The notes below the pieces were generated by a model. The model did not search any database. It was given only the letters and a program-made list of their open reading frames with translations, and had not been told where the DNA came from. Positions 2,955 to 10,775 of a stretch of 64,000 nucleotides of DNA are shown piece after piece. Numbering within the stretch: position 1 is the stretch's first letter; the number at the start of each line of letters is the position of its first letter. Made by a program: the position numbers and the translations under genes. Source of the DNA: Thiotrichaceae bacterium (GTDB lineage: Bacteria > Pseudomonadota > Gammaproteobacteria > SZUA-140); NCBI GenBank assembly GCA_002401765.2, contig NVTY02000078.1, positions 1 through 64,000 of the forward strand, written 5' to 3'.

Positions 2955-2980
2955 GGATTCCTCTTATCACCTTTTTGTAT

Positions 2981-3058
2981 GTATAACGTTTGAGTTAAAG
3001 GGTTTTTTAAAAGCGAAGCGAGAGCGCCGCTTTTAAAAAATCCGTTTTGAACGACTTG
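2981..3058 (-). repeat. attC site 3, split by a group II intron
   Basis: On the minus strand the bulk of the site reads CAAGTCGTTCAAAACGG, a palindrome rich in TTTTAAAAGCGG, then TTTAACTCAAACGTTATAC. Its first bases, GCTAA, lie about 2 kb away at 5072-5076. Joining the two flanks without the intron gives GCTAACAAGTCGTTCAA, a normal attC opening. The intron therefore sits inside the proximal core of this attC site. Confidence 0.85.
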
Positions 3059-5071
3059 GTACGCCCAGCATGGGCGTGAACTTATGAGGTGAAAGTCCTC
3101 TGTAAGAGATTCGCCTGTCTATTTATAGACAGTATAATTACTAGTCGACGGCAACTGCAAGTCCGCGAGGTGTTGTGGGAAGGAAGCCTGAGTACAAAAC
3201 TGCGAGCTTACGTACAGAAACATCATATGAGGCCCAGTCTCAGGGGTGAGTTAGCCAAGCATAACGAAACCCATGAATCGCGAGATAAGGTAAATGATGA
3301 GGCAGTGCAGTGAAAGTTCACGTTCTTATCTGGGGAGATCTGCTTAACGAGCGATCGGTAATTAACCAGTGAGACTCTGGTATAGAAGTGTCTTGGTTCA
3401 TTGATGTCATCGCTCAATGAAAGCGAAAAGATGAAACCCGATAGCGCAGTGCAAAGTAATTTGTGGTGTGTTTAAGCAGAAGTCAGCAGACGGCATACGA
3501 CTGCATGGATGCAGGAGGTAGAGCAACGCAGGAGCAGTTGCCGAGTAGCCAAATGCCCATCGTAATGGTTGGGACATGGTGCCAGCAGTAGGCGCTATAG
3601 GCAAAGGCCTGAACATTTAAGGGGGTAAAAGTCATGTTCGACTGGGTAACTAATTTAACGCCGACCGGTGATTATAGTGATCTGCGTGGGAACATAAAAC
3701 TCGACCCTAATGCGTCATTATTCGACAGAGTACTCGCACCTGAAAATCTCAAAAAAGCATGGCAACGCGTGCGTGCAAATAAAGGGGTGGCGGGTGTGGA
3801 TGGTGTGACGATTGAGCATTTTTTAGACTGGTCACAGCAACACTGGAAACAAGTTGTGACTGATTTGGAAGGCGAAAACTATCGACCCCAACCGGTTAAA
3901 CGCGTTGAGATCGACAAGCCTGACGGCGGTAAGCGCTTATTAGGTATACCTACGGTGCTCGATCGTGTAATTCAACAAGCCATTGTTCAAATGCTGGGCC
4001 CAATACTAGACCCTTTATTTTCAAATGACAGTTATGGATTTAGGCCAAACAGAAATGCTGCACAAGCGATAAAAGAGGTTGCCGGCAACATAAAGCTAAA
4101 CCGTAAAATTGCGGTGGACGTTGATTTGTCTAAGTTCTTTGATCGCGTTAATCATGATTTATTAATGACAAAACTCGGCTTCAATATTAAAGATAAACGG
4201 GTGCTGGCATTAATAGGGCGTTATTTACGTGCCGGCATTATGGATGGAAAACAACTAAAACCCAGCAAAGAAGGTGTGCCACAAGGCGGCCCACTCTCGC
4301 CCTTACTATCAAATGTAATACTTGATAGCTTGGATAGAGAACTGGAAAGTCGAGGCCATAAATTTTCAAGATACGCTGATGATTTTATCATCTTAGTAAA
4401 ATCAAAGCGTGCAGGAAAGCGTGTGCTGAATAGTGTAAGTCACTATTTAAAAACACGTTTAAAATTAATGGTAAACACGGATAAAAGCCAAGTGGTTGAG
4501 GTAAGTCGAAGTAAATTTTTAGGTTTTACCTTTTCACGAGGAAACGTTAAATGGCATGAAAAATCGCTCAAGAAATTTAAACAAAGAGTACGCGAACTTA
4601 CAAACCGAAATTGGGGCGTAAGTATGTCGTATCAATTGTATAAATTAACGCAGTATTTAAGAGGCTGGATCAACTACTACGGTATAGCCAATGTGTACCA
4701 ACAGTGTATGGATCTAGATAATTGGATACGGCGACGGGTGAGGATGTGTTACTGGCGTCAGTGGCGAACCAACAGTAGGCGCTTTTAGGCGAACCGCGAA
4801 CAAAAGTAACTAAATTGTTGCAACTGGGTGCATCTAAAGACTGGGCAGTTACTTGTGGCAGCACAAGAAAAGGTCCGTGGCGTAGTTCAAAAACACCCGG
4901 TATACAACAAGCGCTGAGCAATGACTATTTGAAAGCGGAAGGTCTGTTTTCTTTAAGGGACGGTTGGATAAAGATACATTATCCTAGCGGATAGTTAAAT
5001 GAACCGTCCTGTGCGGAGCCGTATGCAGGGTGGTGTGGGGAGGGCTGATTAGTTGTCAGCCCTTACCCGAT
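3059..5071 (+). mobile_element. group IIC-attC intron
   Basis: The 5' end GTACGCCCAGCATGGGCG, the roughly 570-nt structured leader, the reverse transcriptase gene, and the 3' end (GCGGAGCCGTATGCAGGG, then a hairpin and TTACCCGAT) are typical of the class C group II introns that insert at integron attC sites. Its orientation is opposite to that of the cassettes, as is known for this group. Its insertion point is between CGACTTG and TTAGC in the attC core. Boundaries are inferred from motif similarity and the restored attC and could be off by a base or two. Confidence 0.85.
3634..4994 (+). pseudogene. ltrA: group IIC intron reverse transcriptase/maturase, frameshifted near the C-terminus
   Basis: The intron-encoded protein would copy the intron RNA into DNA and help it splice. 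The reverse transcriptase core is complete: RANKGVAGVDGVTIEHF, the segment SNDSYGFRPNRNA, the GVPQGGPLSPLLSNV motif, and the catalytic RYADDFII. The thumb/X domain follows to WRQWR (about residue 378). The frame then ends after RTNSRRF at 4788. The expected C-terminal tail (EPRTKV, then SKDWAVTCGSTRKGPWR and DGWIKIHYPSG, stop at 4992-4994) continues in another frame. The junction has the octamer GGCGAACC twice, 25 bp apart, suggesting a small insertion or duplication. The last 70 or so residues are therefore lost, and activity is doubtful. The ORF ATG follows GGGGGTAAAAGTC. Confidence 0.85.
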
Positions 5072-5333
5072 TTAGCTTTTTCTTGATGACTAAAAATATA
5101 AAGGTAAAGATAGACACGGCTAAGAAAGAGACTATGAAATTAAGAATAATTTCTAAATCAGCTATATCTTCAGCATTAGCTGTTCCATACAGATCAGACA
5201 CCCAAAGAGCAAAAGGTTTGGGATAAGTAAAACCAAAGTAATAATAATAATTTCCGATAATGTAGGCCAATATAACTGTCCCCGTTATTAACCAAATAAT
5301 TAAATATTTATATCTTAGCATTGGCTTCACCAT
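5049..5333 (-). CDS. small two-span membrane protein, candidate immunity protein of the DUF2778 cassette
   Basis: A 94-residue protein with two hydrophobic segments (about residues 10-30 and 65-85) linked by a roughly 35-residue loop containing GFTYPKPFALWVSDLYG, and a basic C-terminal tail. The first bases overlap the end of the DUF2778 gene by 7 bp, so the two are probably translated together. A small membrane protein directly after a cell-wall-acting protein is the position an immunity protein would take; this is inference from layout only. The last seven residues (NRVRADN) are encoded by the 3' end of the group II intron; before the insertion the frame would have continued into attC site 3 and ended LTSRSKRIF. 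Confidence 0.6.
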   Translation of the reverse strand: MVKPMLRYKYLIIWLITGTVILAYIIGNYYYYFGFTYPKPFALWVSDLYGTANAEDIADLEIILNFIVSFLAVSIFTFIFLVIKKKLNRVRADN

Positions 5334-5788
5334 ACCCTAACCTTACCATAGCACTCTAACCCCACATCCGAAATTTCTATTGTTTTCGTTCCCTTTAACA
5401 GAGAACGTACTACCTGGAAATCCGTCCAGTCGTTAATGGTGATACAACCTTGACTAATACCTAAAATACCACTTGGGTGAAGGCGAAATTGCCCGCGCTT
5501 CACTTGTTCGCAATAGGTTTCGTCGTCTATTTTAGTGTCAATAGCATAGAGCGCAAACCATGCGTCCTTCTCATTTTTATTGAATATGCTTTTAAATCGC
5601 TCCTTTAAGCTAGATTGACGATCAAAAATATAGTAACTCCCCTTCGGGATAGGGCCTTTATTTAGTGAACATTGCGACTTGGAATTGTTTACGTGTTTGT
5701 CTAAACCGGAAAATTCTGGAAATGACGGAGCACCCATTTTAAAAGTGCTCATGGGTTTATTATTCAGTTTAAAACTACAATCAATCAT
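5327..5788 (-). CDS. DUF2778 (Tlde1-like) protein, putative peptidoglycan-targeting effector
   Basis: About 153 residues from the ATG at 5788, which follows a good ribosome-binding site (AAAGGAAAG); a longer frame from a TTG lies inside attC site 4 and is unlikely. The DUF2778 signature is clear: GPIPKGSYYI near residue 44, FRLHPSG near 100 and SQGCITI near 113. In this family, known from the type VI effector Tlde1, the His and the Cys form an L,D-transpeptidase-like active site that attacks or modifies peptidoglycan precursors. There is no signal peptide, as expected for a protein delivered by a secretion machine rather than by Sec. The following gene overlaps it and encodes a two-span membrane protein. 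No secretion genes are in the window, so delivery by a type VI system is inference. Confidence 0.78.
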   Translation of the reverse strand: MIDCSFKLNNKPMSTFKMGAPSFPEFSGLDKHVNNSKSQCSLNKGPIPKGSYYIFDRQSSLKERFKSIFNKNEKDAWFALYAIDTKIDDETYCEQVKRGQFRLHPSGILGISQGCITINDWTDFQVVRSLLKGTKTIEISDVGLECYGKVRVW

Positions 5789-5810
5789 AAGACTTTCCTT
5801 TTTTATTAAA

Positions 5811-5867
5811 GCTAACGCCAAGCTAAGCGGCGCACTTTTTAGCGTCCGCTTAAGCTTTTTGTTATGT
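5811..5867 (-). repeat. attC site 4
   Basis: A short site of about 57 bp. On the minus strand it reads ATAACAAAAAGCTTAAGCGG, a small loop, then CCGCTTAGCTTGGCGTTAGC; the two arms pair almost completely. It closes the Tae4 cassette and precedes the DUF2778 cassette. Confidence 0.88.
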
Positions 5868-6078
5868 GTGTTTTTGCAACTGCCATTAGCACTACAATAA
5901 AAATTGATGCCACAAAATAGCCCAACAACACATAGGAAAATATAATTGGAGCAATATCCATTCGTTGAGATTCGGTTAGATATGGAAATATTATTTTATT
6001 ATATGAGAATAGATAAATACCAAAATTTATTACAAACATAAAAGCAACTAAAGACACATATAAGGATAATGATTTCAT
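5839..6078 (-). CDS. small two-span membrane protein, candidate immunity protein of the Tae4 cassette
   Basis: A 79-residue protein with hydrophobic segments at about 6-27 and 45-68, separated by a short loop (NKIIFPYLTESQRMD). It starts 11 bp after the stop of the Tae4-like gene, inside a five-base tandem repeat with several overlapping ATG and TGA triplets, so reinitiation after the upstream gene is plausible. The C-terminus (HITKSLSGR) lies in attC site 4. Known Tae4 immunity proteins (Tai4) are soluble periplasmic proteins with signal peptides; this one is not of that type. Its immunity role is inferred from position only. Confidence 0.6.
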   Translation of the reverse strand: MKSLSLYVSLVAFMFVINFGIYLFSYNKIIFPYLTESQRMDIAPIIFSYVLLGYFVASIFIVVLMAVAKTHITKSLSGR

Positions 6079-6101
6079 TTCATTTCATTTCATTTCATTT
6101 C
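6072..6101. repeat. five-base tandem repeat, six copies, at a gene junction
   Basis: ATTTC is repeated six times on the plus strand (GAAAT on the coding strand). It covers the last codons of the Tae4-like gene and the start codon of the membrane protein behind it. Such repeats gain and lose units by slippage, which would change the spacing between the two genes. Confidence 0.9.
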
Positions 6102-6602
6102 CCAGAACCAGATTTTCCTGCTGCGATTGAGGTCTGATAACGTGCCAAAAAATTCATATACTGACCTAAAGAACATACTACTGCTTGTAATTTTGTCTTT
6201 ATCCCATAGATCGATGTGGTCTCCGCTTCTAGTCTGTTCAGATTCGCTTCCACGTGGCCAGTAGTCTTTAAAGAATATTACACCAGTCTTATCGGCAAGC
6301 TCCTTTTGAAAGGTTTTAGGGTTTACTTCGATCATTTTTTCGAAACCTCCCGGCGGAGAGGCCCTTAACCCCTTTGCAAGATCCTCGGCTAGTAAAATAT
6401 GTTTTGGCCCTGCTGAATGAGACCAACATTTATTGCCTTTGTAACCAGCAATGCTAATACCAGATTTGATCAGGCATTCACTAAGCATAATTGCACAATA
6501 ATCACTGAAAGGCTTACTGCTATCCTTTTGCTTATTGAAGCATTTTGACGACAACAGCCTTTTATCTGGGTAGTTATTCCATAACGCTTTAAACTTACTC
6601 AT
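6090..6602 (-). CDS. Tae4-type amidase, putative type VI secretion effector
   Basis: A 170-residue protein matching the Tae4 family of peptidoglycan D,L-endopeptidases that type VI systems deliver into the periplasm of rival cells. The catalytic Cys is in DYCAIMLS (Cys36) and the catalytic His in SGDHIDLWD (His129), with GVIFFKDYW (about 107) before it, all in the family order. Cysteines near 21 and 59 could pair. There is no signal peptide. The ATG follows a good ribosome-binding site (AGAGGAAAGTC). The gene starts just downstream of the 3' end of the second group II intron and is followed by a two-span membrane protein and an attC site, so the pair forms one cassette. Confidence 0.82.
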   Translation of the reverse strand: MSKFKALWNNYPDKRLLSSKCFNKQKDSSKPFSDYCAIMLSECLIKSGISIAGYKGNKCWSHSAGPKHILLAEDLAKGLRASPPGGFEKMIEVNPKTFQKELADKTGVIFFKDYWPRGSESEQTRSGDHIDLWDKDKITSSSMFFRSVYEFFGTLSDLNRSRKIWFWEMK

Positions 6603-6639
6603 GACTTTCCTCTATTGATGTTTATCTTGACACACCGGG

Positions 6640-8897
6640 TAGGTCAGGGGCCTCACGACCCCATTCCCCCCTCAGAACCGAGCGTGATAGTTTCCCATCT
6701 TGACGGCTCAAGCATTCCTAAAGGACACCACTGTGGGGTGCCCCAGCTGTTGTACCTCATCAGGCCCATTGCAATTGACACGCCTTCGATCCCAAAATAG
6801 GTAAGAGGCGCGATTCCTTTTTATGCCGTCGTTGCCAAAAATAATAGGCATCTTCTTGCGTATAAGGATTTGCAGTGGCTCTGATTTTAATGTGCCGCCG
6901 TATGCCTATTGCACTTAAGCGGATAACCGAATATTCACGATCACCCTGCTTGGTTTTGCCTTTAACCGAAAAGATATTTCGGCCACCTGAACCCGACCAA
7001 TAGTGACGTGCTAGCCACTTCCTGGACTTGTTCTGATGCCTTCGACATATCATACGCCAAAGCTATTGATAGACATAGGTATCCACTCGAGAAAAGGCCG
7101 CCGATGACACCACGTGGCGGTGGTAATTACCCCAGCCCCGCAGTGTTTGGTTCAGCACTTTTATCAGCACTGTCATCGGTGCGCTTACGTGTTTGCGGCA
7201 TAGAACTCCAACCTTTTGTTTCAGAGCAAGAACGCCCTGTTGCGATGGTGTGATGTGCAGCACATTGCCATGTTTGCGAAAGGTTTGCCCAAGGAATGTA
7301 AAGCCGTCTTTTATGTGCGTGATCGCGGTCTTCTCTTCTGATAGACTGAGACCGCGCGCTTTGAGGAACACTTCTACCGCCGGTTTAACTTGCTCTTCAA
7401 GCAGGCGTTTTGATTTGCCTGTGATGATGAAGTCATCTGCATACCGAACGAAGTTGACACGGGAGCGACGAGGAACAGCGTCTTTCACAACCTGCTCTAA
7501 GCCGTCCAGGGTTATATTCGCCAGGGTGGGACTGATAATCCCGCCTTGCGGCGTTCCTTTTCGCGTTGGATAAAGTCGATTTTCATCGACATACCCACAT
7601 TCAATCCACTTGCGAAGCACGTCGCGATCCATCGGGATGTTCTCGAGCATCCACGAATGGCTGATGTTGTCGTAACATCCCGCAATGTCACCCTCCAGAA
7701 CCCAGCTCGCTGAATTTGGCTTTGCTAGCGCATTAAAACCGGCCGCAATCGCATCGGCACAGCTACGCAGCTCACGAAACCCATACGAGTTTCCGTCAGC
7801 CGTTGTTTCTGCAACCGGTGCTAAGCCGAGTTTATACAATGCTTGCATCGCACGATCAAACATCACCGGGATACTGAGTGGGCGCTTTTTCAAGCTGTTC
7901 TTCTTCGGGATATAGATCCGTCTAAGTGGCTGAGGACGATAGCCACGTTTGCGCAAGCTGCAAGCAGCTCGCCATTTGGCTCGGGCACCTTTCCAACAGA
8001 TGCCGTCTACGCCAGGGGTATTCTTCCCCTTGTTTGAGGTCACTCGCTTCACAGCCAGTAGCTTGGCGTAGAACGAGTGTGAGAGACAATATTGCAAGGC
8101 GCGAACCTTGTTCCATTGACCCTCCTTTACAGCCTTTGCGATACGCATCTGCAGCCTTCTAACAACACGGCGAGCATGGTTCCAGTCGATCTGGTTCCAC
8201 TTCTCCGTGTCGTCGATGAGCGCACCAGCCGAAGCTATCATTTGCTTTCTCATCTTAACAAGGTTCTCCAAATTCTCTCGCAACGGAACACCTGTTGGAC
8301 GTGGGCACGCTGTTTCACCACCACCGAAAGTGATCGCTTTAACGTTGAGTCTTGTTGCAGACTCTATCCACTCCGTTACAGAGTGGCATTCGCTTCTTCC
8401 AACTTCTCATTGTGATGCTTCCATAAGCTTGCCTTACGGTTAGCCTGCCATGCATTGCGACCATGGCGAAATCATCACTTTTCCACGTTCCGCATAATTG
8501 CTCTTATAGACAACTTAGGTGAAGCCTGGACGCCGGTAGCACTGCAATTCCGTGCAAGTACGTTAGAGACTTGCAGCTTGGCTAGGCATGCAAACACTAG
8601 GAAGCATGCCTTTAACCTATTAACACTCGTCGGTTTGTTGCTATTGACGACGCGTGAGACGCTTTAATTAATTTCACTTTATTGTCCGATCCTAGCCCTT
8701 AACCGGAGAGTATTGCCGGAGGGGTTTTCCTGTTACCATTCAAACCCAATTCGGTACATTGTCCGTGAGGCTTCGCACCCCGTCATCAACGCAACGGTAG
8801 CACGCTCACATAGGAGACCGGAGAGAACACTCCGAGTGCATATTCTGTGATGTTCTACAGTAGGCTACACATACAATTATGCGACTTCGTGTCGCAA
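6640..8897 (-). mobile_element. second group II intron (maturase with HNH-type C-terminus)
   Basis: On the minus strand the element opens near TTGCGACACGAAGTCGC (compare the usual GTGCGAC start), has a roughly 600-nt 5' RNA part, a maturase gene and a recognisable domain V (GAGCCGTCAAGATGGGAAAC pairing with CACGCTCGGTTC) followed by a domain VI hairpin and CTGACCTACCC. It is a different class from the intron at 3059-5071: it reads in the direction of the cassettes and its maturase has the extra C-terminal domain. It begins directly after the GCGTTA end of attC site 5. The limits are approximate, above all at the 3' end (about 6635-6660). Confidence 0.78.
6760..8283 (-). pseudogene. ltrA: group II intron maturase interrupted by an in-frame TAG
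   Basis: Reverse transcriptase, X and HNH-type domains of an intron-encoded protein of about 507 residues. The RT core has GVDGICWKG, SYGFRELRSCADAI, GTPQGGIISPTLAN and the catalytic VRYADDFIITG. After VDTYVYQ (residue 406) a single TAG at 7063-7065 stops the frame, but the same frame continues with LWRMICRRHQNKSRKW and the C-terminal SGSGGRNIF, IRRHIKIRATANPY and DAYYFWQRR typical of this family. So one base change separates this from an intact gene. It could be a real amber mutation that inactivates the DNA-binding/endonuclease end, a suppressed codon, or a sequencing error. RT activity without the C-terminal part is possible. Confidence 0.87.
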
Positions 8898-8997
8898 ATA
8901 ACGCAAAGCTAAGCGGCATAGTAACATGGCGATTTTTTTGCGGTTTGTGCAAAACAAGTGCCATGTTACGGAGTCCGGCTTGAGCGTTTTGTTAGAA
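8898..8997 (-). repeat. attC site 5
   Basis: On the minus strand: CTAACAAAACGCTCAAGCCG at the start, CCGCTTAGCTTTGCGTTA at the end, with a long centre whose parts GCCATGTTAC and GTAACATGGC pair. It closes the lysozyme-like cassette. The second group II intron starts within a few bases of its distal core. Confidence 0.9.
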
Positions 8998-9232
8998 CTC
9001 TTTTTTTAAAGTGAAGCAGTAACTTTAAAATATAGATTATGCTTATTTGAACTACAAATGAGGTTATATACCAAGCACTCCAGATGCCAGCTGAATAAAG
9101 ATAATCAATATTGCAATTAACTTCGACTTCTTTACAAAACTCACCCATAGAGTTGTGTTGTAGACCTACATATAGTGCTAAACTAGCGATTATTAATGAA
9201 ACTAAAAGAGGAATTATTAATGTTTTTTTCAT
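8966..9232 (-). CDS. small two-span membrane protein, candidate immunity protein of the lysozyme-like cassette
   Basis: An 88-residue protein with a hydrophobic N-terminal segment (about 5-24) and a second at about 50-73, separated by a Cys-containing loop (EFCKEVEVNCNIDYLY) that would face the periplasm if the first segment is an uncleaved anchor. It starts 14 bp after the end of the lysozyme-like gene and ends inside attC site 5 (tail LTKRSSRTP). The layout repeats that of the two cassettes to its left. Function is inferred from that pattern only. Confidence 0.6.
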   Translation of the reverse strand: MKKTLIIPLLVSLIIASLALYVGLQHNSMGEFCKEVEVNCNIDYLYSAGIWSAWYITSFVVQISIIYILKLLLHFKKRVLTKRSSRTP

Positions 9233-9246
9233 TATTTACATCCCTT

Positions 9247-9760
9247 TTAATTCCATGGCCTTCTTAAATATAATTTTTCTACACGCGCACTATATTCAGT
9301 TACTTTTTCAGCCTCTAAAAAATTATAAATAGATGCGATTTTTTTGACAGATGGATTTTCAATACGGGCTTTGATTCTTGATAATAAAATAGCACCAAAT
9401 TCAATATTATAATATGGACATTCCAGTAGTTCTTTTGTAACGCCAATCTTACGCCAATACTTATAATGTATATTCATGGGTAAAATGGTTTTTTCTAAAT
9501 GGATAGAATATATCATACCATCCATGAGTTGTTTCCATATACATAATTGCCATTACTAAATTTGAATCAATTTTATTTCTTTTTGAAATTTGGATAATTA
9601 AACCACGTCATGTATTAACCTGACTGGCTATTTCAAATTCGTAAAATGGCTCTTCTCCAAATGCATATGGATTATCTTCTATTTCAAACCTAGCTGGAGT
9701 GTTTTCTATGATACTTTTTTTACGTGACTCCATATCATTTAATATTGCTATTGCATCCAT
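9247..9760 (-). pseudogene. lysozyme/transglycosylase-like protein, broken twice
   Basis: The ATG at 9760 follows AAAGGAAATTAAC and gives 50 residues ending QVNT, then an in-frame TGA (9608-9610). The same frame goes on through NKIDSNLVMAIMYMETTHGW, whose Glu in METTHG is a likely catalytic acid of the lysozyme/lytic-transglycosylase fold. At a run of six A (about 9490) the frame shifts by one base; removing one A restores the rest: TILPMNIHYKYW, ECPYYNIEFGAILL, PSVKKIASIYNFL and a terminal LYLRRPW. Repaired, it would be a protein of about 170 residues without a signal peptide, probably acting on the peptidoglycan glycan strand. The family assignment rests on pattern recognition, not on a search. 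As read, it is not functional. Confidence 0.55.
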
Positions 9761-9792
9761 GTTAATTTCCTTTAATTAAAATATTCCAAGTT

Positions 9793-9879
9793 CTAACGAT
9801 GAGCTAACCCGACCGCCCCACAACTTCAAATAAAAATGAAACCAGCTTTATGCGGTCGGGTTGAGCGACGGGTTATGCC
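9793..9879 (-). repeat. attC site 6
   Basis: On the minus strand: GCATAACCCGTCGCTCAACC at the start and GGGTTAGCTCATCGTTAG at the end; the inner arms CCGACCGC and GCGGTCGG pair. It closes the nucleotidyltransferase-HEPN cassette, the rightmost cassette of the cluster. Confidence 0.92.
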
Positions 9880-9890
9880 TTTCTATTCCA

Positions 9891-10775
9891 TCATGACTCA
9901 AAACACTTAATCTTTTCTTGGCAGAGCTTTTTTGTTAAATTTTGTAAAATCTGTACGCGCTCGGCTAACCACACAAGTTCTTCTTCCGTAATTTTGTAAT
10001 GCTCCGAATAACGCGCATCGACATAGGCTTGTTTAAGCAATTGAAAACGGCGGCGATACATTTTTTTATCTTGTGGAAACACCTCGGTAATTTGTTCATT
10101 TTGTAAGATGGCCAACGCATTCAACTGCTTCAAATTATGTGTGTTGGGCTTGTAATTAGTCAAAACGAGTAGCAAACTGGAATAAAAACGTTCTGTGGCT
10201 TGGTGAAGTTGAAACGCCGCTTCTTTTAGAAAACTTTTGGCTAGAGTCATAGCAAAAATTTCATAGAAATTCTGAGCACTCTCAAACCACTGCTCATAGT
10301 GTTTTTCCGCAATAGCTTTGTATTCTCCCGGACTGAGATTGCCCGCCTCCACCAACTCACGTTGATCGGTTTCATATAGCACAATCCCTTCACGTTTGAT
10401 ATCTGTGAAAAAGTATTGGCCCGTGACTAAGGCATCATTCACTTCCTCCAGAGTGTGAACGAGAAGGTTTAAAGGTGGACGAACCTGTAACTCAATTCGG
10501 TCTTCAGCGCGATCCCACAATTTATAGTCTTCAAGCAGTTTTTTGTGACTGACGATCACGAGAATGTCATAATCGCTGACGTAACCGTGGGCAGGATCAT
10601 TCACCCATTTTCCGGTAGCATGACTACCAAATAAGATGATTTTTAATATCCGGCTGTGTTTTCTCTCTCCGGTGGAAAAACCGGTGATTTGCTCCAATTC
10701 ATCGCGCAAGACGGCTACGATATGCGCTAAATGTTTTCGCCTGGAGGCGGATAAATGGTCGAGGTTTTCATTCAT
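9891..10775 (-). CDS. nucleotidyltransferase fused to a HEPN-like domain
   Basis: A 294-residue cytoplasmic protein. The N-terminal half carries a minimal nucleotidyltransferase domain: GSHATGKW (about 49) and the metal-binding SDYDILVIV (about 66). The C-terminal half (about 155-285) is helical with FQLHQATERFYSSLLL, the mark of a HEPN-type domain. In separate form such pairs make MNT/HEPN toxin-antitoxin modules in which the transferase modifies and silences the HEPN ribonuclease; fused forms also exist. The catalytic RxxxxxH of HEPN ribonucleases is not obvious here, so the domain may be structural. The gene ends 12 bp before attC site 6, so it is an integron cassette. Confidence 0.75.
   Translation of the reverse strand: MNENLDHLSASRRKHLAHIVAVLRDELEQITGFSTGERKHSRILKIILFGSHATGKWVNDPAHGYVSDYDILVIVSHKKLLEDYKLWDRAEDRIELQVRPPLNLLVHTLEEVNDALVTGQYFFTDIKREGIVLYETDQRELVEAGNLSPGEYKAIAEKHYEQWFESAQNFYEIFAMTLAKSFLKEAAFQLHQATERFYSSLLLVLTNYKPNTHNLKQLNALAILQNEQITEVFPQDKKMYRRRFQLLKQAYVDARYSEHYKITEEELVWLAERVQILQNLTKKLCQEKIKCFES

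Follow-up and report, generated by a model that had tools for sequence, protein, structure and literature searches.

Wall-acting enzymes and small membrane proteins as putative effector–immunity cargo of integron cassettes in a Thiotrichaceae bacterium

Integrons are gene-capture systems best known for spreading antibiotic resistance, and a cassette array on contig NVTY02000078.1 of a Thiotrichaceae bacterium (assembly GCA_002401765.2) raises the question of what cassettes that pair a cell-wall-acting enzyme with a small membrane protein are for. We analysed positions 1 to 64,000 of this contig, hereafter the window, together with other contigs of the same genome and with its relatives. We consider it probable that the cassettes are integrase-mobile effector–immunity modules, in which the enzyme would be toxic and secreted, the partner would confer immunity and an integron integrase would move the two together. 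That putative effector–immunity pairs are integron cassette cargo, in one case inside a type VI secretion system (T6SS) operon, is a strong conclusion from the sequence and the new element of this work; among the papers listed by searches of the open-licence full text of PubMed Central, none describing such pairs in attC cassettes was recognised. The literature base consists of PMC5361080, PMC12409362, PMC8946536, PMC10127599, PMC9638812 and PMC11551772.

Enzyme–partner pairs of the window

The array runs along the minus strand from ~9,880 down to ~1,720, as delimited by an attC covariance model and open reading frames (ORFs), and the features given below lie on this strand unless stated otherwise. 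A preliminary description had proposed three attC-bounded cassettes of one plan, each joining a wall enzyme to a membrane protein of two spans, and Pfam and hydropathy bear out this plan for two of them. One encodes a Tae4-family amidase of 170 amino acids (aa) at 6090–6602, which reaches 81.8 bits against PF14113 (E 5.5e-23, curated cut-off 27), so that the earlier family assignment stands; 3' of it lies the gene of a 79-aa two-span membrane protein (5839–6078, ORF and hydropathy), a candidate immunity protein. The Cys and HIDL regions of the amidase align with those of Ssp1 (4bi3) in a weak match (E 0.027), and the aligned Cys and His may be the catalytic pair. The other cassette encodes a Tlde1-family L,D-transpeptidase-like enzyme of 164 aa when read from a TTG codon (5327–5821), and its description as a DUF2778/Tlde1-type protein agrees with 104.6 bits against PF10908 (Tlde1_dom, E 5.9e-30, cut-off 30.1); an inner ATG would give a protein starting with MIDCSFKL. 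Its gene overlaps by seven bases with that of the 94-aa two-span membrane protein (5049–5333, ORF and hydropathy), again a candidate immunity protein, whose last codons are intron sequence. A stretch FRLHP..G...GC is kept across five cassette Tlde1 proteins, with the cysteine of its GC invariant in all five. Exchange of the corresponding type of residue is reported for Tlde1a, where C131A abolishes toxicity (PMC9638812, in the part available), and the cassette cysteine is presumably, from an unaligned comparison, the counterpart of Tlde1a C131.

Hydropathy revealed two hydrophobic segments in each of the three small proteins of the window (79 and 94 aa, and the 88-aa protein of the third cassette), with one positively charged end by eye, and none in Tae4 or Tlde1. 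The earlier statement that none of the enzymes has a signal peptide thus holds for these two at the level of hydropathy only, with no signal-peptide program behind it, while the gene of the first enzyme is not open. The three partners had also been called unlike one another; we found no similarity between the 88- and 79-aa or between the 94- and 79-aa proteins, the two pairs compared. The 79-aa partner is neither Tai4 nor Rap by Pfam, where its two matches both fall under the cut-off. Four other cassette pairs with a Tlde1 enzyme allow a comparison of the two components: the enzymes are 83, 57, 56 and 60% identical to that of the window and the partners 72, 28, 14 and 28% identical to the 94-aa protein, the partner thus diverging quicker than the enzyme across all four. 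This would be expected if such pairs must separate self from non-self.

The attC sites were identified with a covariance model, R1, which was trained on eleven sites, five of these from the window, and used for every attC count. Five window sites score at E<1e-8, all five being training sites, namely 9790–9879 (54.9 bits), which follows a KNTase/HEPN gene, 8895–8998 (74.3 bits, E 5.7e-16), 5809–5868 (55.2 bits), which has an identical copy on contig C42 of the genome, 2492–2613 (46.3 bits) and 1723–1845 (49.3 bits). A sixth site, which spans 2980–5085 and is interrupted by a group II intron, is weak (17.3 bits, E 0.088 for its 2980–3065 part). Between 11 and 64 kb the window gave zero R1 matches at E<=10, and a scan of 87 kb from other loci turned up a single site, one already known. 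Two earlier scans were discarded: a simple one, whose few hits partly lay in non-array DNA, and a weight-matrix scan, which improved on it, yet scored up to 18.6 in control DNA.

Cassettes across the genome and their insertion points

Type VI genes are present in the genome, and their absence had been named in the preliminary description as a refuting outcome. We found Hcp, two different tssC genes in three matches, TssJ, TssK, TssM, TssA, TssB, TssF, TssG and a ClpB-type ATPase, and a 644-aa protein encoded 3' of Hcp resembles VgrG by eye. The integron integrase model TIGR02249 gave 25 matches, three of them over the cut-off and two of these with equal scores, and all 14 control genomes matched below the cut-off only. 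One integrase gene, at 637–1641 of contig C59, has an attC at 39–127 in front of it on the other strand (E 3.1e-4).

A genome scan with R1 returned 48 matches at E<=1, from which we dropped nine whose E exceeded 1e-3 and six that lay on the reverse strand of near-palindromic sites; the remaining 33 sense-strand matches at E<=1e-3 comprise 30 distinct attC sites after removal of three exact duplicates, with the near-duplicates C14/C49 and C20/C48 still within the 30. Seven of the 30 close a pair in which a wall enzyme recognised by Pfam stands beside a membrane, lipoprotein-like or secreted-like partner, and five of these seven lie outside the R1 training set (E 7.5e-14 at C72, 3.5e-9 at C44, 8.8e-8 at C6 and 5.6e-5 at C21 for sites outside it). 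The pairs are Tae4 with the 79-aa protein (window and C42), Tae4 with a 151-aa secreted-like protein (C42), Amidase_2 with a lipoprotein-like protein (C72), Tlde1 with a 98-aa protein (C44 and C70), with an 89-aa protein (C6) and with a lipoprotein-like protein (C11), and Rap1a with Tae4 (C21). Outside this count stand the Tlde1 pair of the window, because of its split attC, the lysozyme-like pair of the window, since it is without a Pfam family, a Tlde1 pair with an 88-aa partner on C43, where radC precedes the attC, and three cases that come after an attC, namely a Tae4 pair on C14, a VanY protein on C49 and an M15-like protein on C46 (0.0012, under cut-off). The upstream sequence is too short to judge at C46 and at C11:58–157, and C59 is without an ORF in the examined stretch. 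None of the seven Tlde1 matches of the genome (five distinct) is more than 1.4 kb away from an attC, and six adjoin one, the exception being the pair on C43. Further cassettes hold ordinary cargo (glyoxalase, AraC, GNAT, ADI-family protein, SDR and DUF1028), and several are without a Pfam family.

Evidence for insertion at the attC crossover point comes from C21, C72 and the comparison of C42 with the window. Of nine relatives, six have the two genes that flank the Rap1a–Tae4 cassette of C21 without this cassette between them, and the other three do not show both flanks together. In G012, G011 and G015, three of the six, the empty site can be read to the base as ..CTCGCGTTATCAC.. (..CTCGCG^TTATCAC..), where our genome has ..CTCACG^TTAGCC.. 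on the left and ..ATGACG^ATATCAC.. on the right. These junctions are the predicted integrase cutting point. On C72, the Amidase_2–lipoprotein cassette with its attC is flanked on either side by a tssC gene, all in one direction, and the two relatives compared here (G015 and G019, out of three with TssC) have both tssC genes without an intervening cassette. Homology to G015 restarts on the right at TTATCAAATT / TTATCAAATTAAAATAAG, the attC crossover point, and the left junction is clear to within a few bases. Both of these lone-cassette sites carry TATCA after the cut. In the third case, C42 and the window both hold the intron-bearing Tae4 cassette, preceded by a different attC site in each, and share sequence from the G^TT of these sites onward. 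For C6 no empty site could be demonstrated, as no relative showed both flanks together.

The same pairing, sought in other cassette arrays, recurs in further cassettes of this genome and of its genus. Among ten genomes searched in the genus, our own included, an R1 match (E<=1e-3) occurs in seven, TssC in four and Tlde1 in three, and Tae4 occurs in four of 20 genomes of genus and family. G015 has Tlde1 with an 87-aa protein and a YkuD-type protein with a secreted-like protein, each before an attC, DUF6973 with a lipoprotein-like partner one ORF from an attC, and a PAAR–AHH nuclease one ORF after one; G017 has an M23 peptidase with a secreted-like protein before an attC, and G018 has VanY after one. 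Beyond the genus, eleven loci match the cassette Tlde1, one of which (L156) is the G015 locus again, leaving ten others. Of these, L160 has a clear attC directly after the Tlde1 pair (39.9 bits), L159 a match ~200 bases past the partner (27.5 bits, E 1.9e-4), L161 a strong attC (68.3 bits) immediately ahead of a Tlde1 broken into two frames, and L157 a weak site where the pair begins (23.4 bits) and no more than a half-site behind it; R1 does not match L158, where the fold is suggestive (-18.3 vs a null 5% of -16.0), and L155, L162, L163, L164 and L165 have no R1 match at E<=1. Together, the T6SS, the additional cassettes and the two absences support well, as sequence evidence, the earlier proposal of a store of exchangeable effector–immunity modules that were gathered separately.

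The broken lysozyme-like gene, the introns and other features of the array

The first cassette of the window had been described as encoding a lysozyme-like enzyme, which cannot be upheld as a working lysozyme: the gene (9247–9760) is broken by an in-frame stop past ...EFEIASQVNT and a frame change past ...METTHGWYDI, leaving pieces of 50 aa (9608–9760) and 92 aa (9247–9525), and neither these nor the intact relatives match any known lysozyme family. NCBIfam and PHROGs give no match to the pieces, and Pfam gives only one, under its cut-off, of the 92-aa piece to the winged helix WH_Rok (0.0045). The sole hint of a lysozyme is a resemblance in the METTHG motif. An open 184-aa paralogue lies on contig C86 of the same genome (L171:3376–3930) with an 81-aa partner and no attC at this place; the match runs through one TAA, which is located upstream of the start codon of that frame. 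Among 369 sampled genomes of the class, the enzyme found a match in its own genome only. A relative of 202 aa is encoded in Photobacterium sp. GJ3 (L166:2644–3252), followed by an 84-aa two-span protein that gave no BLAST match to the 88-aa protein of the window. Searches with the Photobacterium relative (Pfam, PHROGs and PDB sequences), with the C86 relative (Pfam) and with a profile built from these two sequences (PDB sequences) gave no usable match; the only PHROG match of the intact relatives is weak (0.081) and points to a regulator. The 88-aa two-span partner in the window (8966–9232, hydropathy) is open and 41% identical to the 81-aa partner on C86. The window therefore retains this partner, a candidate orphan immunity gene, without its enzyme. 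Separately, in Vibrio campbellii NZ_CP050465.1 an attC match (L167:5930–6032, 32.1 bits, E 3.5e-6) lies ~2.8 kb from a lysozyme-like fragment.

Two group II introns, recognised with Rfam, interrupt the array. One lies between the attC at 8895–8998 and Tae4 (6634–8870, 5' end approximate; RF02012 at 8695–8836 and RF00029 at 6634–6711) with a reverse transcriptase (RT) gene at 7063–8283 by eye. The other lies on the plus strand inside the attC after the Tlde1 cassette (~3058–5071; RF02001 at 3159–3324 and RF01998 at 3445–3520), with an RT-like gene, by eye, on the same strand at 3634–4788. The left flank of this split attC ends in ..GAACGACTTG and the right flank starts with TTAGCTTTTTC, and the intron supplies replacement last codons of the 94-aa protein. 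The segment C42:8948–12654 is identical base for base to window positions 8584–4878 (3,707 bases), which is possibly an effect of assembly, so that the two copies were counted once; the stretch between crossover and this block differs between C42 and the window at a number of bases, and at least that stretch is therefore present twice. A second long identical overlap in the assembly joins C72 and C13.

Downstream, the next cassettes encode a 111-aa protein without a Pfam family and with a start that looks like a signal peptide by eye (2619–2954) and a DUF1028 protein (1839–2480, PF06267, 4.3e-49). The KNTase/HEPN gene beside the array is at 9891–10775 (Pfam), and further neighbours resemble truD, ispF, ispD and eno by eye. 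In G018 the place beside truD (C68, L137:1922–5362) holds an attC and a VanY gene, and no attC match came from this place in G013, G014 or G016.

Several other elements were seen near attC sites. A 188-aa 'AARDL' protein with a 104–118-aa membrane-like protein, without Pfam family, occurs on two contigs of our genome, split in one of them, and in G015 (L083:706–1595, L034:3933–4782 and L121:11426–12317) and may be a new effector family. A 271-aa protein with no Pfam family and a 106-aa membrane-like protein, directly after an attC on C15 of our genome (L081:2312–3417), form a possible pair. A multi-copy, nearly gene-free and cassette-like repeat of ~320–440 bases is found in at least seven places of our genome (C6, C11:69226–69661, C15, C20, C47, C48 and C68:760–1079) and begins at the 3' end of an attC in C11 and C68. 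A multi-copy two-gene element, often beside cassettes (L034:706–2651, L039:1871–3816, L043:4811–6756 and L036:1–1799), codes for a 301-aa tyrosine-recombinase-like protein and a 345-aa protein with a cysteine-rich start. Finally, CRISPR-like repeats that translate to 'HPHACGEH' and 'GSSPRMWGT' lie a few hundred bases from an attC (L091:5471–6619, C45 of our genome).

Mechanism, competing explanations and meaning

We propose a model in which the enzyme of each pair would be cargo of the cell's T6SS and would cut the wall of a neighbouring cell, while the small membrane protein would sit in the inner membrane of the producer and block, with a periplasmic loop, the same enzyme when sister cells deliver it. 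A periplasmic loop that faces the target of the enzyme is likely, given the two spans and the positively charged end of the partners. Wall enzymes without a signal peptide would be harmless at home and would need an injector, which the T6SS of this genome could provide. The attC would let an integron integrase excise, store, copy or insert the pair, and the cassette inside the T6SS operon could be read together with the secretion genes. In the first module of the window, where the enzyme is lost and the partner kept, the latter would act only as a shield.

A number of observations weigh against this model. One of the three window enzymes is broken and the end of one partner is altered by an intron; Pfam reveals no loading domain on the window enzymes, with no search beyond Pfam made; and the contig of the window has no integron integrase match (TIGR02249), with the array beginning at the contig end. 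The long identical contig overlaps (C72/C13 and C42/window) render the order of cassettes across the intron uncertain, and the right junction at C21 today reads GAT instead of GTT. Tae4 has ten matches in the genome at no more than eight distinct loci, four of which lie by an attC, so that this enzyme occurs without attC too. VanY lies by an attC in G018, which has no TssC match at 86% completeness, and a wall enzyme in a cassette is consequently no proof of a T6SS.

In a different explanation, the array is a passive sample of gene traffic, with enzymes mostly silent or decaying and with a reserve of immunity genes as the part that matters. The loss of the lysozyme-like enzyme beside an open partner fits this, as do the C42 cassette protein at 3933–4452, which is split into two frames, and the retention of immunity genes after effector loss in Vibrio cholerae (PMC5361080, in the part available). 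However, both Tae4 and Tlde1 of the window are open, with an active-site stretch that is conserved in Tlde1 and putatively so in Tae4, and the named cassette enzymes other than the lysozyme-like one are open reading frames as well, one of them within the T6SS operon and oriented like the tss genes. We regard this explanation as unlikely.

Toxin–antitoxin cassettes probably stabilise other chromosomal integrons, and a cassette that combines a toxin with its antidote is laid out like an addiction unit, so the pairs might guard the array against loss. This is very improbable: the lone cassettes on C72 and C21 have no array to stabilise, and Tae4 and Tlde1, without a hydrophobic start, would have no access to the wall in their own cell, so that addiction would require delivery by a sister cell. 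Also very improbable are phage-type lysis modules, in which an endolysin and a small two-span holin were caught as cassettes. The pair plan equals that of holin and endolysin, likewise a small two-span membrane protein beside a wall enzyme, but Tae4 and Tlde1 exceed their Pfam cut-offs, the three small partners gave a single weak PHROG match (0.091), pattern scans reaching close relatives only returned no confirmed viral-contig relative of Tae4 or the lysozyme-like protein, and the same enzyme families occur elsewhere with lipoprotein-like or Rap1a partners, one pair in a T6SS operon.

As putative effector–immunity modules, the cassettes share with Tae4 (Ssp1) and Tlde1a–Tldi1a the enzyme families, probably the catalytic regions, and the order of effector followed by small partner gene; they differ in being bounded by attC, in the two-span partner of the window Tae4 and in the C21 Tae4 partner, which matches Rap1a. 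In Vibrio cholerae, effector–immunity modules are replaced by horizontal transfer and displaced immunity genes are kept (PMC5361080), and the part of this 2017 paper available likens the arrays to integrons and states that there is no evidence for an integrase inserting pairs. In contrast to those arrays, attC sites and integrase-type junctions are present here. Cassettes at secondary sites are known from two reports cited in PMC10127599, in the part available, which concern plasmids and a GNT-type site outside attI; GNT-type insertion outside attI is common to those and to our cases, which differ in carrying putative effector–immunity cargo. Chromosomal integrons carry functional modules such as phage defence, and mobile integrons reportedly do so too; attC cassettes, an integrase and functional modules as cargo are alike, whereas the modules described here would serve antibacterial attack and self-protection and include single cassettes outside arrays, one of them in a T6SS operon.

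More tentatively, and with chances that we place slightly below even, the integron of this genus could be an arming system, in which the integrase draws pairs from arrays and drops single ones at chromosomal sites, including the T6SS operon. If so, weapons and shields would be swappable under integrase control, perhaps under SOS. For T6SS effector–immunity pairs, attC cassettes offer a testable route by which they could enter genomes and move between them. Such pairs would also give a possible use to integron cassettes of unknown function, and reading cassette arrays may be a way to new effector families.

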